Shown here in pieces: positions 33,588 through 46,716 of a DNA stretch of 64,000 bases. The translations under genes were made by a program, and so were the position numbers. Numbering within the stretch: position 1 is the first letter of the stretch; each line of letters opens with the position of its first letter. The stretch is from Caballeronia sp. SBC1 (lineage in GTDB: Bacteria > Pseudomonadota > Gammaproteobacteria > Burkholderiales > Burkholderiaceae): the NCBI RefSeq assembly GCF_011493005.1, contig NZ_CP049157.1:372001-436000 (forward strand), written 5' to 3'. The notes below the pieces were generated by a model. The model was given only the letters and a program-made list of their open reading frames with translations, did no database searches and was not told the DNA's origin.

Positions 33588-35240
33588 CTATCTGGCGTCG
33601 TGCTGCAGATATTTGTGGGCGAACGCGATCGCCATGCTGCCCTCGCCGACCGCTGAAGCGACGCGCTTGACCGGGCTCAATCTCACATCCCCGCAGGCAA
33701 ACACGCCAGGAACACTCGATTCGAGGAGGTAGGGATCGCGGCTATGGGACCAGCGTCCCGCCTTGACGACGTCGTCACCGGTGAGCACATATCCGCGCAC
33801 ATCGCGCGCGATTTCTGCGGGCAACCATTCGGTTTCTGCATCGGCGCCAATGAACACGAACAATCCACCACAGTCGTGTCGACGCACCTCTGCGCTCAAA
33901 CCATCGCGTACGTCGATTGCTGTCAGATGGGTATCGCCGTACGCACCGACTACTTCCGATCGCAGTTGCACCCCTACGTTTGACTTCCCACGAAGCTGCT
34001 CGACAAGGTATCGAGACATGCTCTTCTCCAGCGAATCGCCCCGCAGGACAAGCGTCACCCTGCGCGCATGATTGGCAAAGTACAACGCGGCCTGGCCGGC
34101 CGAGTTTCCTCCACCGATCAGATAGACGTCGAGTCCGTGAGTAGCGTTCGCTTCGCTGCGCGACGCGCCGTAGTAAATGCCTTTACCGATAAACCGCTCG
34201 AAGCCGTCGATCGCAAGTCGGCGCCACGTGACGCCAGTCGCGAGAATGATCGTTCGCGCCCGGATGACGTCGCCTGCATCAAGGTGAACGCTACGCCCGG
34301 CGACATCGATTCGAGCGACGGACCGTGTCACCACAATCTCTGCACCGAGCCGCCTTGCCTGCTGCAATGCACGGCTCGCCAGTTCGTCGCCCGACACACC
34401 GTTGGGGAAGCCGAGGTAGTTCTCAATACGCGAGGAGGTCCCGGCTTGCCCGCCTGGCGCTTCGCGCTCCAGCACCACAGTGCGCAAGCCTTCCGATGCA
34501 CCGTACACCGCCGCAGCAAGACCGGCTGGGCCGCCACCAATGATCATCGTGTCGTATTCGGCAAGGCGAGGCTGTGTCTGCAGACCCAGCAACTCCGCAA
34601 GCTCGCGTGTCGTAGGTCGGCTCAGCACCGTCCCGTCGACCAGTCGCAATACCGGGCAATCCTGCTCTGGCGGACATGTTCCAGGCCAGCGCGCTGTCAG
34701 TTCGGGCGCATCCGGTGTCATCCAGTCGTAGCTGATCTGGTTGCGGGAGAGGAACTGGCGCAACACCGTGCAAGCGGTGTCCCAGCGACTTCCAATCATG
34801 ATCACGCGGGCCTTGGGCGGCTCGGCGGAGAGGCCCTGCAATCCGCCAATGCGCTCGCGCGCAAGGGCGCCCATCTTGAACGCAATTTCCGGCGACGCGG
34901 CAGCAAGCACGTAGTAGCGCTGAGCGTCCACGCGCATGACACGCGACGGTTCAGCAGCCCGATAGGCGCCTGGAAACGGCGAACTCAGCGCGAGCGGCAC
35001 TTCGCCAAAGATGGTTCCGGGCAGACGCCAGCCCAGCGTGCGCTCGATACCGTCGAACGTCTTGATGACTTCCATCTTGCCGGCCAGAACGGCGTACAGT
35101 GCGCCCTCTCCACCTTCATGGACCGCGAACTCACCCGCGCACAGATGCAGGTCTGCGGACGTGTGTGCGAGATGCTCCAGTTCATTGTCGGGGAGTGTTG
35201 AGAACAGCGGAATCGCCCGGATGTCGTCGATTGTCAGCAT
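33588..35240 (-). CDS. Cyclic-nucleotide-binding/thioredoxin reductase-like flavoprotein
   Basis: A 550-aa fused protein from the ATG at 35240. Residues 8-130 are a Crp-type cyclic nucleotide-binding domain, 144-220 a thioredoxin-like fold without CxxC, and 230-550 a thioredoxin reductase-like FAD/NAD(P)H module (GGGPAG at 235-240, a second IGGGNSAGQAA, and a late GVFACGDV). The redox CxxC expected after the NAD domain is replaced by a GIYYGASRSEA stretch. It may therefore be an NAD(P)H oxidase or ferredoxin reductase-type enzyme gated by a ligand or membrane signal. Neighbours suggest stress defence. Confidence 0.88.
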   Translation of the reverse strand: MLTIDDIRAIPLFSTLPDNELEHLAHTSADLHLCAGEFAVHEGGEGALYAVLAGKMEVIKTFDGIERTLGWRLPGTIFGEVPLALSSPFPGAYRAAEPSRVMRVDAQRYYVLAAASPEIAFKMGALARERIGGLQGLSAEPPKARVIMIGSRWDTACTVLRQFLSRNQISYDWMTPDAPELTARWPGTCPPEQDCPVLRLVDGTVLSRPTTRELAELLGLQTQPRLAEYDTMIIGGGPAGLAAAVYGASEGLRTVVLEREAPGGQAGTSSRIENYLGFPNGVSGDELASRALQQARRLGAEIVVTRSVARIDVAGRSVHLDAGDVIRARTIILATGVTWRRLAIDGFERFIGKGIYYGASRSEANATHGLDVYLIGGGNSAGQAALYFANHARRVTLVLRGDSLEKSMSRYLVEQLRGKSNVGVQLRSEVVGAYGDTHLTAIDVRDGLSAEVRRHDCGGLFVFIGADAETEWLPAEIARDVRGYVLTGDDVVKAGRWSHSRDPYLLESSVPGVFACGDVRLSPVKRVASAVGEGSMAIAFAHKYLQHDAR

Positions 35241-35990: not shown

Positions 35991-36063
35991 CCCCGGCGTC
36001 AGAATAGTTGTCGTGTTATCTGATTCTTATAGACATGGTCCGGGGGCGGTAAAATCAGGGTGA

Positions 36064-36561
36064 ATGAAAACCTACTCAGCAGAAAGAAAAGAAGCGCTGG
36101 TGCGGCGCATGATGCCACCGGAAAACGCGCTGGTTTCGGCGCTGGCCAGAGAAACGGGGATTACCGAACAGACGTTGTACACGTGGCGCCGACAGGCGAA
36201 AGGACAAGGGTTGGCCGTGCCGGGCGATGGGAAGAATCCCGAAGCATGGTCTTCGGAGGACAAGTTTGCAGTAGTGCTGGAAACCGCGCCGCTCAATGCA
36301 GCGGAGCTGGCCGAGTATTGTCGTCGAAAGGGTCTTTATCCAGAACAGATATCCGCCTGGCGAGCCGCTTGCCGTTCGGCCAATGCGAATGCCACGGAGC
36401 AGGCACGCGAGCAGCGCCATCAGTCGAAGGACGACAAGAAGCGGATCCAGCAGCTCGAGAAGGAATTGCAGCGCAAGGAGAAGGCGCTGGCGGAAGCGGC
36501 TGCGCTGCTGATTCTGAGAAAAAAAGCCCAGGCGATCTGGGGAGACAAAGAGGACGATTAA
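36064..36561 (+). CDS. IS3-like transposase OrfA
   Basis: A 165-aa DNA-binding subunit. A helix-turn-helix near residues 20-45 (VSALARETGITEQTLYTWRRQ) is followed by a second HTH-like part. A leucine-zipper-like coiled coil lies near 120-150 (KKRIQQLEKELQRKEKALAE). The A7 tract at 36519-36525 lies in its last codons, where a -1 shift joins OrfB. It ends 36 bp inside the OrfB frame. Confidence 0.85.
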   Translation: MKTYSAERKEALVRRMMPPENALVSALARETGITEQTLYTWRRQAKGQGLAVPGDGKNPEAWSSEDKFAVVLETAPLNAAELAEYCRRKGLYPEQISAWRAACRSANANATEQAREQRHQSKDDKKRIQQLEKELQRKEKALAEAAALLILRKKAQAIWGDKEDD

Positions 36562-37616
36562 TCAACGTCCCGGATCGCCTGTTATGTGTATCGTTGATAC
36601 GCGAGGCGGCGCAGTCAGGCTGCCGGCTGGAGAAGGCTTGCGACGAGCTGGGCCTGAGCCTGCGCACGTTCCAGCGCTGGGTGGGTGACGGTGACGCGGT
36701 GCACGCCGATGGCCGTACCACGACCGAACGGCCGCCGCCGGGTAACCAGCTGAGTGAGGCCGAACGGCAACAGATTCTTGAGGTAGCCAATAGTGCGGAG
36801 TTTGCCAGCTTGCCGCCCAGCCAGATCGTGCCAAGCCTGGCGGATCGCGGCGTGTATGTCGCGTCGGAATCGAGCTTTTACCGCGTGCTGCGCAGCGCCT
36901 CGCAGCAGCATCACCGGGGTCGTGCGCGCAAGCCTTCGACCCGGGTGGTGACCAGTCATTGTGCGACAGCGCCGAATCAGGTCTGGTCGTGGGACATCAC
37001 GTGGCTGCAGGCGGCGGTCAAAGGACAGTACTACTACTGGTACATGATGCTGGACGTGTTCAGCCGCAAGATTGTTGCTCACGAAGTGCATGAAGCCGAA
37101 TCGGCGGAACTGGCCGCGTTGCTGATGCGGCGTGCCAGTCTGGCCGAGGGCCTGGCAGGACGTCCTCTGGTGCTGCACTCGGATAACGGCAGCCCGATGA
37201 AGGGTGCGACGATGCTTGCCACTCTGGAGAACTTGGGGGTTGCGGCCTCGTTTAGCCGCCCGCGTGTGAGTAATGACAACCCGTACGCAGAGTCGCTGTT
37301 CCGCACCTGCAAGTACCGGCCCGACTATCCACGCAGGCCGTTCGGCAGCGTGGATGAGGCCCGTGCCTGGACGCAGAAGTTCGTGCGTTGGTACAACCAG
37401 GAGCACAAACACAGCGGCCTGAAATTCGTCACGCCGGCGCAGCGCCACAACGGCGTAGCCGCCGCAGTGCTCGCGCAACGTGAAGCCGTTTATGCAGAGG
37501 CCAGGCAGCGCAATCCACAGCGTTGGTCCCGATCGACGCGCAATTGGGAATTGAAGGATGAAGTCTGGCTCAATCCGGAGCGTATGCAGCCGGAAGAACT
37601 AAAGCAGTTTGCTTGA
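36525..37616 (+). CDS. IS3-like transposase OrfB (integrase core, by frameshift)
   Basis: The reading frame continues from OrfA after a -1 slip at A_AAA_AAA. The DDE catalytic triad is visible as Asp in WSWDITWLQ, Asp in LHSDNGSPM and Glu in NPYAESLF. The rve integrase core and the C-terminal HSGLKFVTPAQRH motif complete it. No separate good start codon is seen near the OrfA end, so OrfAB is probably made by programmed frameshifting. The element looks potentially active. Confidence 0.85.
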   Translation, partial: SPGDLGRQRGRLINVPDRLLCVSLIREAAQSGCRLEKACDELGLSLRTFQRWVGDGDAVHADGRTTTERPPPGNQLSEAERQQILEVANSAEFASLPPSQIVPSLADRGVYVASESSFYRVLRSASQQHHRGRARKPSTRVVTSHCATAPNQVWSWDITWLQAAVKGQYYYWYMMLDVFSRKIVAHEVHEAESAELAALLMRRASLAEGLAGRPLVLHSDNGSPMKGATMLATLENLGVAASFSRPRVSNDNPYAESLFRTCKYRPDYPRRPFGSVDEARAWTQKFVRWYNQEHKHSGLKFVTPAQRHNGVAAAVLAQREAVYAEARQRNPQRWSRSTRNWELKDEVWLNPERMQPEELKQFA

Positions 37617-39347: not shown

Positions 39348-39863
39348 CTAATGATGCGTTTGAAAAGTAGTCCGGTAGTGTCCCGGAGAAACGCCGAGCA
39401 CGTCAATGAAAGCCTTCCGCATCGCTTCATCGCTCCCAAATCGGCAGTGCGCGGCAATTTTCTCAAGCCCGTGTCCTGACTCCTGAAGCAGCCCGCGCGC
39501 TGCCTCTACCCGGCTTTGACGGACGTGACTGGCCGGCGTACAGCCGAACTCCGCTCGAAATACACGCGCGAAATTTCGGGGACTCATTGCCATGCGTTGA
39601 GCCAGGGACTCAACACTCAAAGGCTTGCGGAGGTTCTCGACAATCCAGACACACAGGTCTTCAAACGTTGGCGATTATAGATGCCCTGATCTTCGACCCA
39701 TATGCTTTCCGGATCGACCCGAACATTGGGATGGCGCGTCTGTAGCTCGTTCACCCAATGCCAATGGGTGGCCGCGCGTTTTCCTTCAAGCAGGCCTGCA
39801 TCGGCCAGTATGAATGCTCCGAGGCAAACGGAAGCGGTGCGTCGTGCTCTCTTGCTCATGCGG
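39348..39863 (-). pseudogene. GlxA-type regulator, 3' part, cut by IS21 and internally deleted
   Basis: Two frames carry the rest of an AraC/DJ-1 regulator. The first (to 39863) has SKRARRTASVCLGAFILADAG, containing the elbow cysteine, up to VEDQGIY. The second has EDLCVWIVENLRKPLSVESL and the AraC HTH (MSPRNFARVFRAEFG to GVSPGHYRTTF). Between them about 60-75 codons are missing and the frame changes, so the gene was decayed by deletion as well as insertion. Its N-terminal part lies beyond the IS at 45812-46165. Confidence 0.85.
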
Positions 39864-39935
39864 TGTCACCTTTCGGCGTAATGGCGCCGGGCATTTTCGC
39901 CGTAATGACGCCACCGGAAACGAGCAATTGGAGGG
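39864..39935. repeat. IS21 end with transposase-binding repeats (istB side)
   Basis: The end begins TGTCACCTTTCGGCGTAATG and carries two copies of a TTTCGSCGTAATGRCGCC-like unit. They are inverted relative to those at the far end. Confidence 0.75.
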
Positions 39936-39947
39936 TTCGAACGGGGA

Positions 39948-40736
39948 TCAAGGTTGCTTGATTTTGCCTCCTTTTGCAAGCTCGGTTCTAGGTGACTCGA
40001 CGCCCGGTTTTAGTCCGCGATAGCTCTCGCCGTCGAGGACGATTTTGTGGGCACCATGACGCAAGCGGTCAAGGGTTGCCGCGCCGATCATCTTGTTACC
40101 TGGGAATGCTTCACCCCATTCCGGGAAGTCCAAATTGGAAGTTAAGATCGTGGCCGTGCGCTCATAACGCTCGGCGATCAGGTCGTGGAAGTCTTCATCG
40201 TCCGGCGAACGCAGTGGCTTGAGTCCGAAGTCGTCAATGATCAGAAGTGGAAGCTTGGCGAGATACTGGAAACGGCGGTCGTAGGTGCCCACGGCCGCCG
40301 CGCTGCGTAGACTTGATAGCAATTGGCTTTGCGTAGAGAACAAGACATCGTGTCCTTGCCGCGCAGCTGCATGTCCCAGCGCTTGTGCGAGATGACTCTT
40401 GCCAGTCCCACACGGGCCGGCGATCAGAACGGCTACTTTCTCGTCGATGAATCGGCACGTGGCCAGATCGTGGATGGCGGCTCGATTCAAACCTGGCAGC
40501 CGATCGAAGTCGAAGCCTTCGAGTGTCTTCTGGCTACGGAAGTTGGCGCGTCGCATGCGCAAGCTGAGTTTCTTGTTATCGCGCCGGGCTACTTCATCAT
40601 GGATGAGCAGCGAGAGGAATTCGGTGAAGGCGAGCTTGCGATCAATGGCCTCGCGGTTGCGCGCTTCCAGCGAATCGAGGATGCCAGACAAGCGCAGTTG
40701 TTTAAGCAGTGGAGTCAGTTCAGGAATGGGATGCAT
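39948..40736 (-). CDS. istB: IS21 helper ATPase IstB
   Basis: A 262-aa AAA+ ATPase related to DnaC. Walker A is GPCGTGKS, Walker B LLIIDDFG, and the sensor-type TSNLDFPEW follows. The N-terminus (LKQLRLSGILDSLEARNREA) is the usual IstB start. It loads and stimulates the IstA transposase. It lies 8 bp downstream of the istA stop. It appears intact, so it could act in trans on related elements. Confidence 0.92.
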   Translation of the reverse strand: MHPIPELTPLLKQLRLSGILDSLEARNREAIDRKLAFTEFLSLLIHDEVARRDNKKLSLRMRRANFRSQKTLEGFDFDRLPGLNRAAIHDLATCRFIDEKVAVLIAGPCGTGKSHLAQALGHAAARQGHDVLFSTQSQLLSSLRSAAAVGTYDRRFQYLAKLPLLIIDDFGLKPLRSPDDEDFHDLIAERYERTATILTSNLDFPEWGEAFPGNKMIGAATLDRLRHGAHKIVLDGESYRGLKPGVESPRTELAKGGKIKQP

Positions 40737-40744
40737 GGCCGGCC

Positions 40745-41520
40745 TTATTGGAGAATGGTTTGTGTATTGCGGCAGAAACGGCCCCCTTCGGTGTAGGTGC
40801 TCGCCAGCGCATCAAAGGCGTTTAACAGCGTCAGCTGATCCAATCCCTTTTGCAGAATGGTCTTAACTGCCGTGTAATGCGGCGTGCCGTAATGGTTGGC
40901 GCGCGAGCAAGCAGCTTCGAGTCGAATCGCGCCGTATTTCTGTTTGAGCCGCAACACGCCTTGCACCGAGCGCATCTTGATTAAGACTTTGTCGCCGAAG
41001 AGCGCATGAACCAGGGCGTAGCAGGCAGGCCCGATCTGCTCAGCAGTTGCCAGACACCATTGAGTGTCCTGCAGTTGCCACGCTTGAGCAGCGGATGGCA
41101 GATGATCGTCTACGGTGCGGCGGCCCCCCGGACGGGTAAGACGCACGTGGGCGGCAACCGATTCCTGCCCGCGATAGAGTGTCACCATAGTGTCGGTCGC
41201 CTTGAGCCACAACTCCTGGCCGACCAGTCGATACGGGACCGAGTAAAAACTCTGCTCGAACTGAACGTGAGCGTCGCGATGCACCTTCCCCTTAGCCCAC
41301 ACCGCAAGCTCTGGTGGGACGTCTGGCAAGCTGCTTAGCAGGCTTCGTTCGACTTCCGCGAAGCGTTTGAGCGGCATCTCGCGGGTGGTCCCGTGAATGC
41401 GGTTGCCGGCCTCGTTCATGACCCAAGCGTGTATCTGGCGGTTGGCGTCAGCCAGACCGCGGAACTCCCGCAGTGGCAAGAAGCCTCGCTTTACAAATTT
41501 GACGCCCGATTCCACGATTC
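40745..41520 (-). pseudogene. istA: istA transposase, 3' part
   Basis: The frame reads GIVESGVKFVKRGFLPLREF onward, with the third catalytic residue (Glu in VESGVK). It continues to a C-terminal domain and stops at 40745. It is open at its upstream edge, where the nested recombinase element begins (CCTT at 41521-41524). The first two catalytic aspartates are on the other side, so this half cannot act as transposase. Confidence 0.88.
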
Positions 41521-41562
41521 CCTTCTCGTAAGTCAGCAACTGTCTGTCATGAGGAACAACGC

Positions 41563-41841
41563 GTAGTCAAAGGCGCGTTCTTCGAGATCACCCATCCATT
41601 TCACCCGCTTCACGGAAATAGCTTCGTTTTGGTCAGCCGGCGGCTGAACTGGGGCGAGGATCGGGTGATGTATTTCGACGCGAACAAGCGCCTGCGTTCG
41701 GTTTTGGCATCCTGGACAGACGTGCCGGAACCGGATTTGTTCGCGCAAGCTTCGGGAGTTCGATCCTCGTTTAGAACGGACGACTTGCTTCGATTGCGTG
41801 CGCTAATCGACGATTTGCTAGGTGCTCGCGATGTCAAATAA
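41563..41841 (+). CDS. DUF5372-like protein, 5' end unclear
   Basis: The frame GAFFEITHPFHPLHGNSFVL, then WGEDRVMYFD and SWTDVPEPDLF, runs to the stop at 41841 and matches what I know as DUF5372. It lies next to HTH and recombinase genes, as in related elements. No ATG or GTG precedes the conserved start in frame; the frame is open back to the element edge, so the start may be unusual or lost. A TTG at 41629 would cut the domain. Confidence 0.6.
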   Translation, partial: VVKGAFFEITHPFHPLHGNSFVLVSRRLNWGEDRVMYFDANKRLRSVLASWTDVPEPDLFAQASGVRSSFRTDDLLRLRALIDDLLGARDVK

Positions 41842-41969
41842 ATTTCGCCGCTCGTGTAAGGATAAATACGCCGTCATCATGATGCTGAAGCATCTGATTG
41901 ACCAGGACGTCTTAAGTCTATCCAGCTCCAATTTGCCGTTATTTCAGAGTAAATCGATCATCGAAATCC

Positions 41970-41998
41970 TTGACAGATTGATTTTACTGTCATATTTT
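41970..41998 (+). promoter_or_regulatory. Sigma-70-like promoter of the HTH/recombinase operon
   Basis: TTGACA (41970-41975) and TATTTT (41993-41998) are separated by 17 bp and lie 31 bp before the HTH gene. GTCATATTTTA and GTCATTTTAA repeat across the -10 region (41990-42012), a possible operator. The AT-rich stretch stands out from its surroundings. Confidence 0.6.
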
Positions 41999-42029
41999 AG
42001 TTGTCATTTTAACAACAACGGATCCTCTA

Positions 42030-42482
42030 ATGACCAAGCCGCCGTCAAAGCGAGATCGACTACGCGAACTCGGCGGCCTCAATCCTCATCCCGATCGAAT
42101 ACAAGCGCCCTGGTTCCGATCGGGCGATTTCTTCGATCCCGACGACATGGTTCAGGTCAAGTACGAGATGTTGCGTCATGTTCAGGTCGACGGCGCCTCC
42201 AAGGCCGAGGCGGCCGCATTGTTCGGAATGTCCAGGCCAACGTTCTATCAAGCAGAGAGTGCCTTTGCCAGCGAGGGGCTTCCAGGGCTGCTCCCGAAAC
42301 AGCGTGGGCCCAAAGGCGCACACAAACTCAACTCGACGGTTATGGCGTTCATCGAAGAGCGCTTACAGCACGACAACACCATCCACGCTCGCGCGCTCGC
42401 GCAGGAGATAGAAACCGCGCTGGATCTATCGGTCCACCCACGCAGTATCGAACGCGCGCTGGCGCGCAAAAAAAAACCGTAG
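42030..42482 (+). CDS. HTH protein of the recombinase element
   Basis: A 150-aa protein with a helix-turn-helix near residues 50-75 (VDGASKAEAAALFGMSRPTFYQAESAF, residues 52-78). A second DNA-binding-like part follows (LSVHPRSIERALARKKKP). It resembles the helix-turn-helix partner of large serine recombinases and the N-terminal part of winged-helix transposase regulators. It ends in a nine-A tract (42468-42476) directly before TAG. A -1 slip there would add the next 90 or so residues. It probably regulates or directs the recombinase. Confidence 0.8.
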   Translation: MTKPPSKRDRLRELGGLNPHPDRIQAPWFRSGDFFDPDDMVQVKYEMLRHVQVDGASKAEAAALFGMSRPTFYQAESAFASEGLPGLLPKQRGPKGAHKLNSTVMAFIEERLQHDNTIHARALAQEIETALDLSVHPRSIERALARKKKP

Positions 42483-42763
42483 ACGATTCGGCTCAATTTA
42501 TTTCGCCATCGTCGGCGCTTGGACGCTACGAAGCGCTGCGGGCCGAGCTCTTCGGCACAGGTCCTCACTCCGAAGGCCACGCCGCAATACGCTTTCATGG
42601 TGTATTGAACGGCCTCGCGATCAAACTCTCGCACGCTCTGTGCACCGAAGTTGCCGTCCCAGCCGTGTTTGATTCCAACTCAGTGCGGGATAACGGTGCG
42701 CTCGTACGCGTGCTGGCCAACCTCGTGCTGCGCGCCCACGAGGAGCTTGCCCATGTCTACTAA
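42477..42763 (+). CDS. Frameshift extension or small ORF before the recombinase
   Basis: The frame starting within the A9 tract reads DDSAQFISPSSALGRYEALR and ends VLANLVLRAHEELAHVY at 42763. It is protein-like throughout but has no ATG, GTG or TTG near its beginning. Expression by -1 frameshifting from the HTH gene fits best, giving about 243 aa. An old single-base indel in the A-run is the alternative. It overlaps the recombinase start by 11 bp. Confidence 0.6.
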
Positions 42764-44837
42764 CTCCGCTCAGAAGGTCACCTCGGAACATCTCCGGCGA
42801 GATGCCTTTCTTTATGTTCGCCAATCGTCGCTTCGACAGGTGTTCGAGAATACCGAGAGTACGAAGCGGCAATATGCACTGCGCGATCGTGCCGTTTCGC
42901 TCGGCTGGCCAATTGAGCGTATTCACGTCGTCGATAACGATCTCGGTATGTCCGGATCCAGCGCTAAGGAACGAGACGGTTTTCAGCACTTGGTTGCCGA
43001 GGTGGCCAACGGTCACGCCGGCATCGTGCTGGGATTGGAAGTGTCCCGTCTTGCGCGCAATAATGCGGACTGGCATCGCCTGATCGAGCTTGCATCGCTC
43101 ACGCAAACTTTGATTTTGGACGAAGATGGAATTTACGATCCGGGTCAATTTAACGACCGTCTTCTACTGGGATTGAAGGGCGCCATGAGTGAGGCTGAAC
43201 TTCATATTCTCAAGGGTCGTCTGCAAGGCGGGATCAAGAACAAGGCACGCCGGGGCGAACTGGAAGTGCCTTTGCCGATCGGCCTTGTTTATCACCCGAA
43301 TGGCTCAGTGGCGCTCGATCCTGATCAACAAGTACGGGGAGCGCTGCAGTTGCTCTTCGACACGTTTCGGCAAGCTGCATCCGCTACCGCGACGGTCAGG
43401 CGATTTCGCCAGGAAGGCTGGCTGTTTCCGCGTCGCATCCGCCGCGGAATCGGGAAGGGAGACCTGCTTTGGGGGCCCCTGGAGCACTGCCGGGTCATTC
43501 AGATTCTGCATAACCCTCGTTACGCCGGTGCGTTCGTGTACGGGCGCACCCGCGGAGCATACCGTCCCGGTCGCAAATCCACATCGCTGAAGGTTGCTCG
43601 CGAGAACTGGCAAGTGCTGATTCAGAATTCTCATCCAGGTTTTATCGATTGGGACGAGTTCGAACGTAACCAGGCTACCCTTAAGCAGAATCTAACCGGA
43701 TTCGGCCTCGATCGACGTGGCAGCATGCCACGTGAGGGTGTCGGCCTCCTGCAGGGGCGTGTCGTGTGCGGTGCCTGTGGAGCACGCATGCGCGTACGAT
43801 ATCAAGAGGTCGATAATAAACTTCAGCCCTACTATATGTGCACGGAGAATCCGGTACGTCGTGCAGGCAAACCCTGCCAATCGGTTCGCGGAAGCGCCAT
43901 CGATGACGCTATCGGCTCGCTGCTTTTGGAGAGCGTTGCGCCAGCTGTGCTCGAGGTCGCGTTAGCGGTCGAAGATGAGATATCGGGGCGCGTCAAACAG
44001 GCCGCGGCGCAGCGTCAGAAGCAACTAGTTCGAGCGCGCTACGACGCCGAGCTTGCGCGCCGTCGATATATGAGTGTCGATCCAACGAACCGGCTCGTCG
44101 CCGACTCACTCGAAGCAGACTGGAATGAGCGTCTGCGCGTACTGGATGCATTGCAGCAAGAGAACGAGCGACTTCAGCATGCCGATCACAAGCTTCTGAG
44201 CAGCGACGCGCGGACCCAGATTCGCGCGCTTGCCGAAGACTTCCCTCGTGTCTGGAATGACCAACGCGTGGTGCCGGTGGAACGCAAACGAATGATCGCC
44301 TTACTCATTGAAGACGTAACCTTGGTAAAGGCAGAACGCATCGCTATCCATGTACGTTTTCGCGGCGGTCGAACGACATCGTTGGAGATCGACAAGCCCA
44401 AGCCTATCGCGCTAATTCGCAAGACGTTGCCCGAAGTCGTTGCAAAGGTCGACGAACTCCTCGAAACCTGCTCGGATAGGCAAGTCGCCGAACAACTCAA
44501 TGCGCTGGGTTATACAAACTGGAAAGGCGAATCGTTCACGCATAAGAAGGTATCTATTGTTCGCACCGCCTACCGACTCAAGAGCCGGTTCGAACGCCTG
44601 CGCGCACGCGGCATGGTGACAGCTAACGAGCTCGCCAAACAACTCGGAGTCTGCCCGACTACCATTTACCTGTGGGGCCAGCGCGGGGTGGTGCACCAGC
44701 ATCGATACGGAAACCTGCATCGCTGCCTCTACGAGCCCCTCGGTGACGTTGTCTTGGTCAAAGGGCAAGGAGGCCGCTACAGTTCGACAGAACCGACTTT
44801 TATCCCTGTTCCATCAACCACACAAGGTGCAGTATGA
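42753..44837 (+). CDS. Large serine recombinase
   Basis: A 694-aa recombinase from the ATG at 42753 (GAGGAG upstream). The N-terminal resolvase domain has the catalytic serine at YVRQSS (Ser25) and GLEVSRLARNNADWHRL. It is followed by the recombinase domain (LGLKGAMSEAELHILKGRL onward), a zinc ribbon (CGACGARMR, then the YMC and CQSV cysteines) and a coiled coil. The C-terminal HTH (ANELAKQLGVCPTTIYLWG) is an extra. It probably cuts and joins the ends of this element. Its stop lies 12 bp from the right junction. Confidence 0.92.
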   Translation: MSTNSAQKVTSEHLRRDAFLYVRQSSLRQVFENTESTKRQYALRDRAVSLGWPIERIHVVDNDLGMSGSSAKERDGFQHLVAEVANGHAGIVLGLEVSRLARNNADWHRLIELASLTQTLILDEDGIYDPGQFNDRLLLGLKGAMSEAELHILKGRLQGGIKNKARRGELEVPLPIGLVYHPNGSVALDPDQQVRGALQLLFDTFRQAASATATVRRFRQEGWLFPRRIRRGIGKGDLLWGPLEHCRVIQILHNPRYAGAFVYGRTRGAYRPGRKSTSLKVARENWQVLIQNSHPGFIDWDEFERNQATLKQNLTGFGLDRRGSMPREGVGLLQGRVVCGACGARMRVRYQEVDNKLQPYYMCTENPVRRAGKPCQSVRGSAIDDAIGSLLLESVAPAVLEVALAVEDEISGRVKQAAAQRQKQLVRARYDAELARRRYMSVDPTNRLVADSLEADWNERLRVLDALQQENERLQHADHKLLSSDARTQIRALAEDFPRVWNDQRVVPVERKRMIALLIEDVTLVKAERIAIHVRFRGGRTTSLEIDKPKPIALIRKTLPEVVAKVDELLETCSDRQVAEQLNALGYTNWKGESFTHKKVSIVRTAYRLKSRFERLRARGMVTANELAKQLGVCPTTIYLWGQRGVVHQHRYGNLHRCLYEPLGDVVLVKGQGGRYSSTEPTFIPVPSTTQGAV

Positions 44838-44849
44838 AGCGTACGCCTT

Positions 44850-45593
44850 TTTTTGCGGATCCCTTGGCGGGCATGCATCGATCTTGAAACCATATCCTTC
44901 TGCGCACTCGCCATACGCGCGTTGCACTTCGGGCTCGTAATAACACGCCCGGGTGATCGCACATTTGCAGTTGTCGATGATGACCCGGGCCGGCACGCCC
45001 CCAAATGCCTCAAAGGCGCGCCGATGACATCCCAGCCAGGTCGCTACGGTTTGGTCTCGAACAAACTCGACATATTGGTGGCGCGACCACGCCAGGGTCA
45101 TGACGAAGAACCAAGTCTTATGGATCTCGCCGGTGAGCGCGTCGGTCATCATCGGGCCGGCGCCGAAATCAACTTGCGCGGCTTCGGCCGGCTTGAACTC
45201 CAGGCGCAGCGGCACGTCGGGCGTGTGCGAGGCGTCTATATGCAGAAGGAAACGATAGACCGAGGAATAGCTGCCGCTGTATCCGTGGTTGCGAACGAGC
45301 GTGGCGTGGATCGTGGTGCATTGAACGCCGGTTGCCCGCCACTTGCTGATCTGCTCGCGCCACGGTTCCAAGGTTGAGACGCAACTCGATGGTAGCGGCG
45401 CCTCTTTGCGATCCAGGAAAGCGGCCATTACGTGTTCGTCGGGTAAAGCCGCTTCACGCGCCAACCATCCGTTCTTGGCGGCAATCTCCCGCACCTGCGC
45501 AATCTTCTTGCGCCCCATGGTCTTCGATCGTGCGATATCCCGGTCAGAGTCGCCTCGGCGCATGCGCACCAGGATCTGTCGGTATTGGTACAT
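44850..45593 (-). pseudogene. istA: istA transposase, 5' part
   Basis: Starts at ATG (45593) with GGAGG six bases upstream. It has an N-terminal HTH (MYQYRQILVRMRRGDSDRDI), then the catalytic aspartates in EAAQVDFGAGP and RVIIDNCKCA. The frame runs to PPRDPQKK and then into the recombinase element. The matching 3' part is at 40745-41520. Together they would make a normal IstA of about 500 aa. Confidence 0.88.
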
Positions 45594-45675
45594 CTCGAAC
45601 CTCCGATTGGCCACGGCCTCTCCCGGCAAAAGGCCGGCAGTCTAGCCGATCAATGAAAGTTCGAACCCTCGTTGC

Positions 45676-45811
45676 TCGTCATCCGGGTGGCGCCATTACG
45701 CCGAAAAACGACTGGCGCCTTTACGCCGAAAACGTCGTGGCTCCATTACGCCGGAAATCCGGTGGCGCCATTACGCCGAAAACGAAATGGCTCCTATATG
45801 CCGGAAATTCA
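45676..45811. repeat. IS21 end with five transposase-binding repeats (istA side)
   Basis: Five imperfect 24-26-bp units, each like TGGCGCCATTACGCCGAAAA, run head to tail to the IS end (GAATTCA-type ...AAATTCA at 45811). They mirror the two units at the opposite end. In IS21 such arrays are known IstA-binding sites. Confidence 0.82.
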
Positions 45812-46165
45812 CATGCGGCGAAGCCACTCGCGGAACTCGGGCGCTCCCACATCGTCAATCGAACGCGGGCCAGCTGTCACGAGCAGGGTATCGACTTCCT
45901 CCTCGTAGTCTTTGTAGGAGGAATGCGCAGCGAGCCTACCGCCTGCCTCGCCCTCAAGCTGACAGTTCTCCGTCGATGAAATGATCGTAAGCCGGTATGG
46001 AGGTTCATTTGCAGGTGCAAGCGAGGAGCCTGCGACGAGCTTATTGACGAGGTCGAATGCGCTCGCGGGACCAAAAAGATCGAGCTCCAGGACGGGAGGG
46101 ACGCCTACCAGCAGGATGGATCTGGTGTGCTGCGACCGACGGATCAGATTTCCCCGATTCGCCAT
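45812..46165 (-). pseudogene. GlxA-type regulator, 5' part
   Basis: The frame from ATG (46165) has ILLVGVPPVLELDLFGPASA, YRLTIISSTENC, and ends GAPEFREWLRRM at the IS junction. This is the first half of the DJ-1/PfpI domain. It joins in frame with SKRARRTASVCLGAF at 39863 downward once the IS and one CATGCGG copy are removed. It is the paralogue type of the intact gene at 19920-20930. Confidence 0.88.
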
Positions 46166-46716
46166 TTTCAACCTCTCGTGAACTGATGTGCATATTGTAG
46201 CGGCTGTGCAATCAGCCTAGAGGGTTGGACTGTTGGCGACCGAATAATTGAAAATCATCTGGCGGACCTCCTGCGGCCGCCCTACCGGGCGACGGGGTTA
46301 GAGTGAGTTTGCCAAGACCGCTTTAACCGGAAGGATGTCAACGATCCACCTCGTCACGTCGAATGACCGTAACTGCCCGCCCCTTGTTGATCCGCGATCT
46401 GCGGCACGCGGCCACTGCAATCCTTCGGGCCTTCGTGCCCCCAACGCCCATTCGAAAGTCCATCCGCGATTCGTTCACACCCTACGCCCTACGCCTTCCG
46501 CTAATCGGCCATCACTGCCGCCGGATAGTCACCGCAATCGTGCGCCTGCGAGTCGCGCTGACGACCCGTGCGGGGCTGGCCGATATCGCGACGCCCGGCA
46601 TTCCGCCCAGGCAGCATCTCCGAATTGAACGCTGCCGTGCGCAACACGCTCAAGAGCGTGCAGAAACGCCCTTCGGTCAACGCTGCCTGCTGGCAGCAGC
46701 CCACGCTTTGGTCATG
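46166..46716. other. No gene supported
   Basis: About 550 bp upstream of the split GlxA-type gene. Open frames on the plus strand (from 46336 and 46363) are Arg/Pro-rich and unlike any family I know. The stretch may be a decayed gene. Confidence 0.4.

Follow-up and report, generated by a model that had tools for sequence, protein, structure and literature searches.

A large-serine-recombinase element in istA, four codons before the catalytic glutamate, and a candidate superfamily of recombinases addressed to genes of other mobile elements

We analysed a 64,000-nucleotide stretch of the Caballeronia sp. SBC1 genome (contig NZ_CP049157.1, positions 372,001 to 436,000), referred to here as the window. 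In it a gene for a probable DJ-1/AraC (GlxA/FtrA-like) regulator is split by an IS21-family insertion sequence (IS), and the transposase gene of that IS, istA, is in turn split by an element that encodes a large serine recombinase (LSR). The coordinates are collected in Table 1. A sequence-only reading of the window had proposed this three-layer nest, and we found that the nest is real, as the istA site is empty in intact IS21 copies of the same genome and the regulator site is empty in Caballeronia sp. SBC2. The nesting and the in-frame joins of that reading stood, while the fixed order of events and the 7-bp target duplication did not, and it overlooked that the position in istA is not arbitrary.

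We found that istA is cut at QKK/GIVESGV, as predicted. Two intact copies of the IS without insert, both on contig C1 and both 100% identical to the window IS, carry an uninterrupted istA. The tetranucleotide CCTT is present at both junctions of the insert (41521-41524 and 44846-44849), and the unit is 3,325 bp long. The empty istA sites of loci L003 and L004 match both flanks of the insert with a single TT core, which indicates a precise insertion. The proposal that the insert is a serine-recombinase element also holds, since the 694-residue protein matches the LSR domains PF00239, PF07508 and PF13408 above cut-off. YVRQS is present in its translation; Y-x-R-x-S is the catalytic motif of large serine recombinases. 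A second, identical copy of the element is found in the same genome (G000:C4:68876-72202), at the same codon but of a different istA. In a phylum-wide search matches were found in 3 of 398 genomes, the window genome among the three.

Table 1. Features of the nested locus, in window coordinates
Feature	Position	Strand	Details
LSR element	41523..44849	+	3,325 bp core to core; TT at 41523-41524 and 44848-44849; empty sites L003, L004
DUF5372 reading frame	41551..41841	+	PF17342, 91.5 bits
Helix-turn-helix (HTH) protein	42030..42482	+	HTH_28/HTH_23; NF033545, NF033577 and NF033594 all below cut-off
A9 run at end of HTH frame	42468..42476	+	sequence
Third open frame; a shift at the A run would lead into it from the HTH frame	42473..42763	+	open reading frame (ORF) list
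Large serine recombinase, 694 aa	42753..44837	+	resolvase, recombinase and zinc-ribbon domains
IS21-family element with insert	39864..45813	-	5,950 bp (intact copies 2,625 bp); ends TGTCACC...TTCACA
Target duplication TGCGG, left	39859..39863	.	comparison of IS copies
Target duplication TGCGG, right	45814..45818	.	comparison of IS copies
istB, intact	39948..40736	-	IS21_help_AAA 258.9 bits, cut-off 200
istA C-terminal part, from interrupted Lys codon (K-G-I-V-E)	40745..41524	-	NF033546 positions 226-294
istA N-terminal part, ends ...PPRDPQK before interrupted Lys codon	44850..45629	-	NF033546 positions 3-228, the final residues read into the insert
Regulator, N-terminal part (DJ-1/AraC, GlxA/FtrA-like)	45819..46171	-	outside the IS; ORF 45809-46171
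Regulator, C-terminal part	39348..39863	-	DJ-1 piece 39617-39859 and AraC HTH piece 39348-39620, different frames
Empty CCTGG site, occupied by the composite in SBC2	34969..34973	.	comparison with SBC2

The TT core is complementary to positions 1 and 2 of an istA lysine codon, which lies four codons before the codon of the catalytic glutamate. This glutamate aligns with catalytic E233 of IS5376 IstA, and in that element mutating the catalytic residues almost abolishes integration (excerpts of PMC10122671). Nine close relatives of the window element were compared, at about 80-99% DNA identity. An element end and its flank can be read in six of them (L018, L019, L020, L021, L024 and L027; L017, L022 and L028 have no such flank), and all six sit at the same istA codon. 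An istA of the type found in ISAzo4 of Aromatoleum also carries a 72%-identical LSR at this codon.

We examined the codon phase in 31 loci at which both ends could be named; loci with one flank and loci with non-TT cores were left out, and L063, L081 and L068 were excluded before counting. With the core read as codon positions 1 and 2, glutamate stands at +4 in 28 of the 31 loci (24 of 27 distinct sites, since L085 and L086 repeat the window site, L062 repeats L018 and L164 repeats L149), and neither of the other two phases gives it in any locus (0 of 31 each). This difference between phases leads us to reject a chance position in istA. The phase is fixed by construction, so that AAN (Lys or Asn) at the core is no evidence in itself and the test is the glutamate at +4 across the three phases. 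The three loci without it are IS66 TnpB genes, and it is present at all 24 distinct DDE-transposase sites (28 loci, window included), which belong to IS21, IS3 and ISNCY elements; one locus, L169, has a one-base ambiguity. In 28 of 31 loci this phase is also the one that stays open longest through the joined site. When the pieces of seven targets were searched separately against family models, the two pieces abutted exactly in four (IS3, model positions 78-313 and 314-368; ISNCY, 2-235 and 236-368; IS21, 64-226 and 227-293; IstB, 1-98 and 99-231) and were one model position apart in two (a second IS3, 134-312 and 314-353; IS66 TnpB, 2-60 and 62-100). Only the C-terminal piece of the seventh, the group II intron reverse transcriptase (RT) of L098, matched a family.

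Over the compared length one recombinase is identical in IS21 (L162) and ISNCY (L029), and another is identical in IS21 (L149) and IS3 (L030). Since identical recombinases are found in different IS families, what the enzyme recognises seems to be DNA that encodes a protein motif, and not one particular gene. Across 22 DDE sites the AA of the core, the G at +3 and the GA of the glutamate codon each reach the full 2 bits; the GA may reflect either recognition by the enzyme or constraint on the protein. A 24-bp pattern derived from nine sites of the closest lineage had two matches in the 8.85-Mb genome, both in the two intact istA copies, and its reversed control had 0. Because the window site is one of the nine, two matches were expected, and the informative result is that there were no further ones.

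The targets of the wider family were assigned by blastx of the flanks against 16 reference proteins of our choosing. Both flanks fell on one reference in 33 of 82 loci: IS21 transposase in 16, group II intron RT in 11, IstB in three, IS3 in two and IS66 TnpB in one. In 33 of 33 the target gene is antisense to the recombinase. The TT core lacks twofold symmetry, which would explain why the elements are placed antisense to their targets. From flank matches and translations we gave a target label to 47 of 56 distinct recombinase proteins; the labels are our own assignments and some come from one flank only. We found that targets follow the recombinase tree, with 12 changes against a shuffled mean of 28.8 and a count as low in 0 of 200 shuffles. 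More distant LSR clades lie in IS66 TnpB, in the Walker A motif of IstB and in group II intron RT. The IS66 TnpB group and the RT group with a proline-codon core each form one fully supported clade, and the DDE label needs 6 changes. Read by eye, the core of the RT group is CC on the proline codon of G-I/V-P and that of the IstB group lies inside the Walker A motif, with two core copies that differ in L046. Among proteins left unlabelled, L044 is in an IS4-like gene that reads RWRIEEAF and then KRLK on its two flanks; L083 and L100 are similar on reading of the right flank only. L033 and L067 have no usable flank, and L155 has one flank in IS21.

The middle layer of the nest has istA together with istB, TG...CA ends and a short target duplication, as an IS21-family element does. 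The string CATGCGG, claimed as a 7-bp duplication, is present at both ends, yet we observed a 5-bp duplication at five of five IS copies: TGCGG in the window, TTTGT and AGAAT at the two intact copies, and CCTGG and GCCAT in SBC2. Since the five copies agree that the IS ends in ...TTCACA, the CA is part of the IS and CATGCGG is a chance extension of the duplication by the IS's own CA.

SBC2 is 100% identical to the window genome on both sides of the regulator site, where its natural 199-residue ORF reads ...EFREWLRRMSKRARRTASV... without interruption, just as the predicted in-frame join requires. This ORF matches DJ-1/PfpI and FtrA; the N-terminal piece from the window, searched alone against family profiles, had no match. 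The DJ-1/PfpI and AraC HTH domains both match, but in different frames and with the middle missing, also in SBC2. Between the two C-terminal pieces, which match positions 105-161 and 238-325 of the FtrA model, about 76 model positions are missing, and this supports the internal deletion that had been noticed. The 199-residue SBC2 frame likewise stops at FtrA position 161, with the AraC part in a frame of its own. Because SBC2 has this same two-frame regulator without the IS, the regulator was damaged there independently of the IS.

In SBC2 the identical 5,950-bp composite of IS21 and insert occupies two further places, and each of these copies is flanked by a separate 5-bp duplication. One of them corresponds to the empty CCTGG site in the window, 4.9 kb from the regulator site; the other is on pSBC2-3, and the corresponding site on contig C4 of the window genome is empty. 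The composite is thus known at three places, none of which is occupied in both strains. The order of events had been taken as fixed by the nest, and this is not borne out. With the SBC2 regulator site empty and the whole composite elsewhere, the IS21 probably carried the recombinase element before the composite reached the regulator. The reciprocal occupied and empty sites would be explained most simply if the composite moved as a whole. Since the istA of the composite is broken, IstA would have to be supplied by intact copies.

Within the element itself, the conserved part of the DUF5372 frame (41525-41841) is not preceded by an in-frame ATG, GTG or TTG, and a start would fall near the very end of the element; a literature search for DUF5372 gave nothing. 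The HTH protein resembles the DNA-binding end of IS630, IS481 and ISNCY transposases, the type of gene that the family invades. In 16 of 19 loci inspected, 8 or 9 A stand in a row at the end of its frame; the run has 6 A in L023, and none was found in L090 or L092. In an S. medicae copy with 8 A the HTH frame and the third frame are annotated as one protein. This suggests a possible programmed slippage at the A run between the two frames. The third frame had no family match in profile searches. The element of the relative L024 is 4,394 bp long, about 1.07 kb longer than the others, and the extra length means that it probably carries an insert itself. In L150:1-1639 (Rhizobium sp. T1473) a second recombinase gene ends directly to the left of the element.

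Taken together, we hold it highly probable that the insert is a 3,325-bp LSR element with a TT core, placed on the istA codon four residues before the catalytic glutamate, which likely entered by site-specific integration and likely spreads as a passenger of the IS21 it splits. Both the integration by the recombinase and the hitchhiking of the composite are steps that we infer from sequence comparison. The recombinase itself would make the insertion, between a circular attP and an attB in istA; the DUF5372 protein, the HTH protein or the third frame may control direction or expression; and the composite would be moved in trans by IstA and IstB from intact IS21 copies. The address may work because transposase activity depends on the Lys/Asn-x-x-x-Glu stretch, which would leave the target IS little room to escape by mutation.

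We considered whether the IS21 entered the regulator first and received the recombinase element later at that place. The anatomy of the nest allows this, identical IS copies can receive a site-specific element more than once, and two intact IS21 copies are available in the genome. However, the identical composite stands at two SBC2 places, with 5-bp duplications, that are both empty in the window genome, the SBC2 regulator site is empty, and an independent LSR insertion would be needed for every composite copy, all of which makes this order unlikely. Spread of the insert among IS21 copies by homologous recombination or gene conversion, rather than with a transposing composite, would be traceless inside copies that are 100% identical, and could still be how an IS21 already in place acquires the LSR. 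But it requires a resident IS21 at the recipient, and the reciprocal sites of the two strains have no IS at all; we regard this route as quite unlikely. The pattern of targets could also arise by survivorship, if the recombinases integrated at many loose sites and insertions were visible only in genes that the cell can spare, the most frequent of which are insertion sequences. LSRs that have multiple targets and use a TT core have been described (excerpts of PMC10083194), and the targets found here are dispensable. This explanation predicts many positions, phases and orientations, and insertions between genes as well, whereas glutamate at +4 is seen in 28 of 31 loci against 0 of 31 for each other phase, and 33 of 33 two-flank loci are antisense. 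We therefore judge it very unlikely.

Several observations weigh against the view that a site-specific element rides in a moving composite and that its relatives behave alike. The appearance of a moving composite could also be produced by gene conversion or by LSR insertions that recur in identical IS21 copies, and the strain comparison covers two strains only. The 24-bp pattern was built from sites that include the window's own. Both flanks on one reference were lacking in 49 of 82 loci, many of which have no flank or no fitting reference, and L025 and L061 could not be assigned to a target. In L062, L155 and L095, which are 3 of the 31 loci, a different frame stays open for longer; the right flank of L155 does not continue a transposase, and L030 is without part of its right end. 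At the RT loci L040, L077 and L099 the flank matches overlap by 27-31 residues, so that the split is not sharp. The one clear counterexample is the recombinase of L051 (33% identity), which lies in a host dnaE-like gene.

With moderate confidence we propose that these recombinases form a hyperparasite superfamily whose addresses are conserved, mostly catalytic codons in the enzymes of other mobile elements: the catalytic glutamate of DDE transposases, the Walker A motif of IstB, TnpB of IS66 and RT motifs of group II introns. Such elements would silence the element they enter, keep its ends and ride in trans, at an address that cannot be lost without loss of the victim's mobility. If this is true, an escape-proof address for mobile elements that attack mobile elements would be a general rule of bacterial parasite-on-parasite evolution, there would be natural recombinases that disarm insertion sequences, and broken IS21, IS3, IS66 and group II intron copies with a common break point would be explained. 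It also opens the direct question whether the DNA encoding a shared protein motif is recognised by one recombinase in transposase genes that are unrelated.

Other features were noted in the surroundings of these loci. The window has an IS3-family element at 36060-37616, with several more near-identical copies in the genome, and no tRNA was found between 36000 and 49000. At L003:23-1660 one intact IS21 copy has interrupted a long reading frame, whose repeated segments resemble Ig-like or adhesin-type ones by eye.

The nest itself is ordinary. The insert belongs to the LSR elements, which are known, while its type of target is new; the absence of such a target from print is only as strong as the literature searches made. 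These gave no account of LSRs in istA (PMC7371123, PMC8989519, PMC10122671, PMC11208146 and PMC10083194 among the sources, without supplements). The LSRs surveyed by Durrant et al. (2022) have dinucleotide cores that include TT, conserved target genes such as competence genes, magnesium chelatase/protease and prolyl isomerase, and a multi-targeting clade with DUF4368 in 63% of its members (excerpts of PMC10083194). The word istb is absent from the main text of that survey (PMC10083194), and the 694-residue recombinase has no DUF4368 match in Pfam. The surveyed LSRs and the window family thus share the dinucleotide core and the conserved targets, but, as far as the survey's excerpts go, differ in that the targets of the window family are codons of mobile elements, mostly catalytic. 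The best NCBIfam match of the window recombinase (residues 21-396) is XisF, the fdxN element excision recombinase (NF041201), at 77.9 bits, which fails the equivalog cut-off of 375. XisF is the LSR of a gene-interrupting element that is excised during development, and excision of that type is without support for the window element. IS5376 IstA (PDB 8b4h, 8q4d), with its D-D-E triad and its partner IstB, resembles the element that was invaded, not the insert. Inteins and group I and group II introns also lodge in conserved active-site code that is hard for the host gene to mutate, and they splice out. In contrast, no sign of removal was seen for the window element; it leaves the frame of its target split, and that target is another mobile element.

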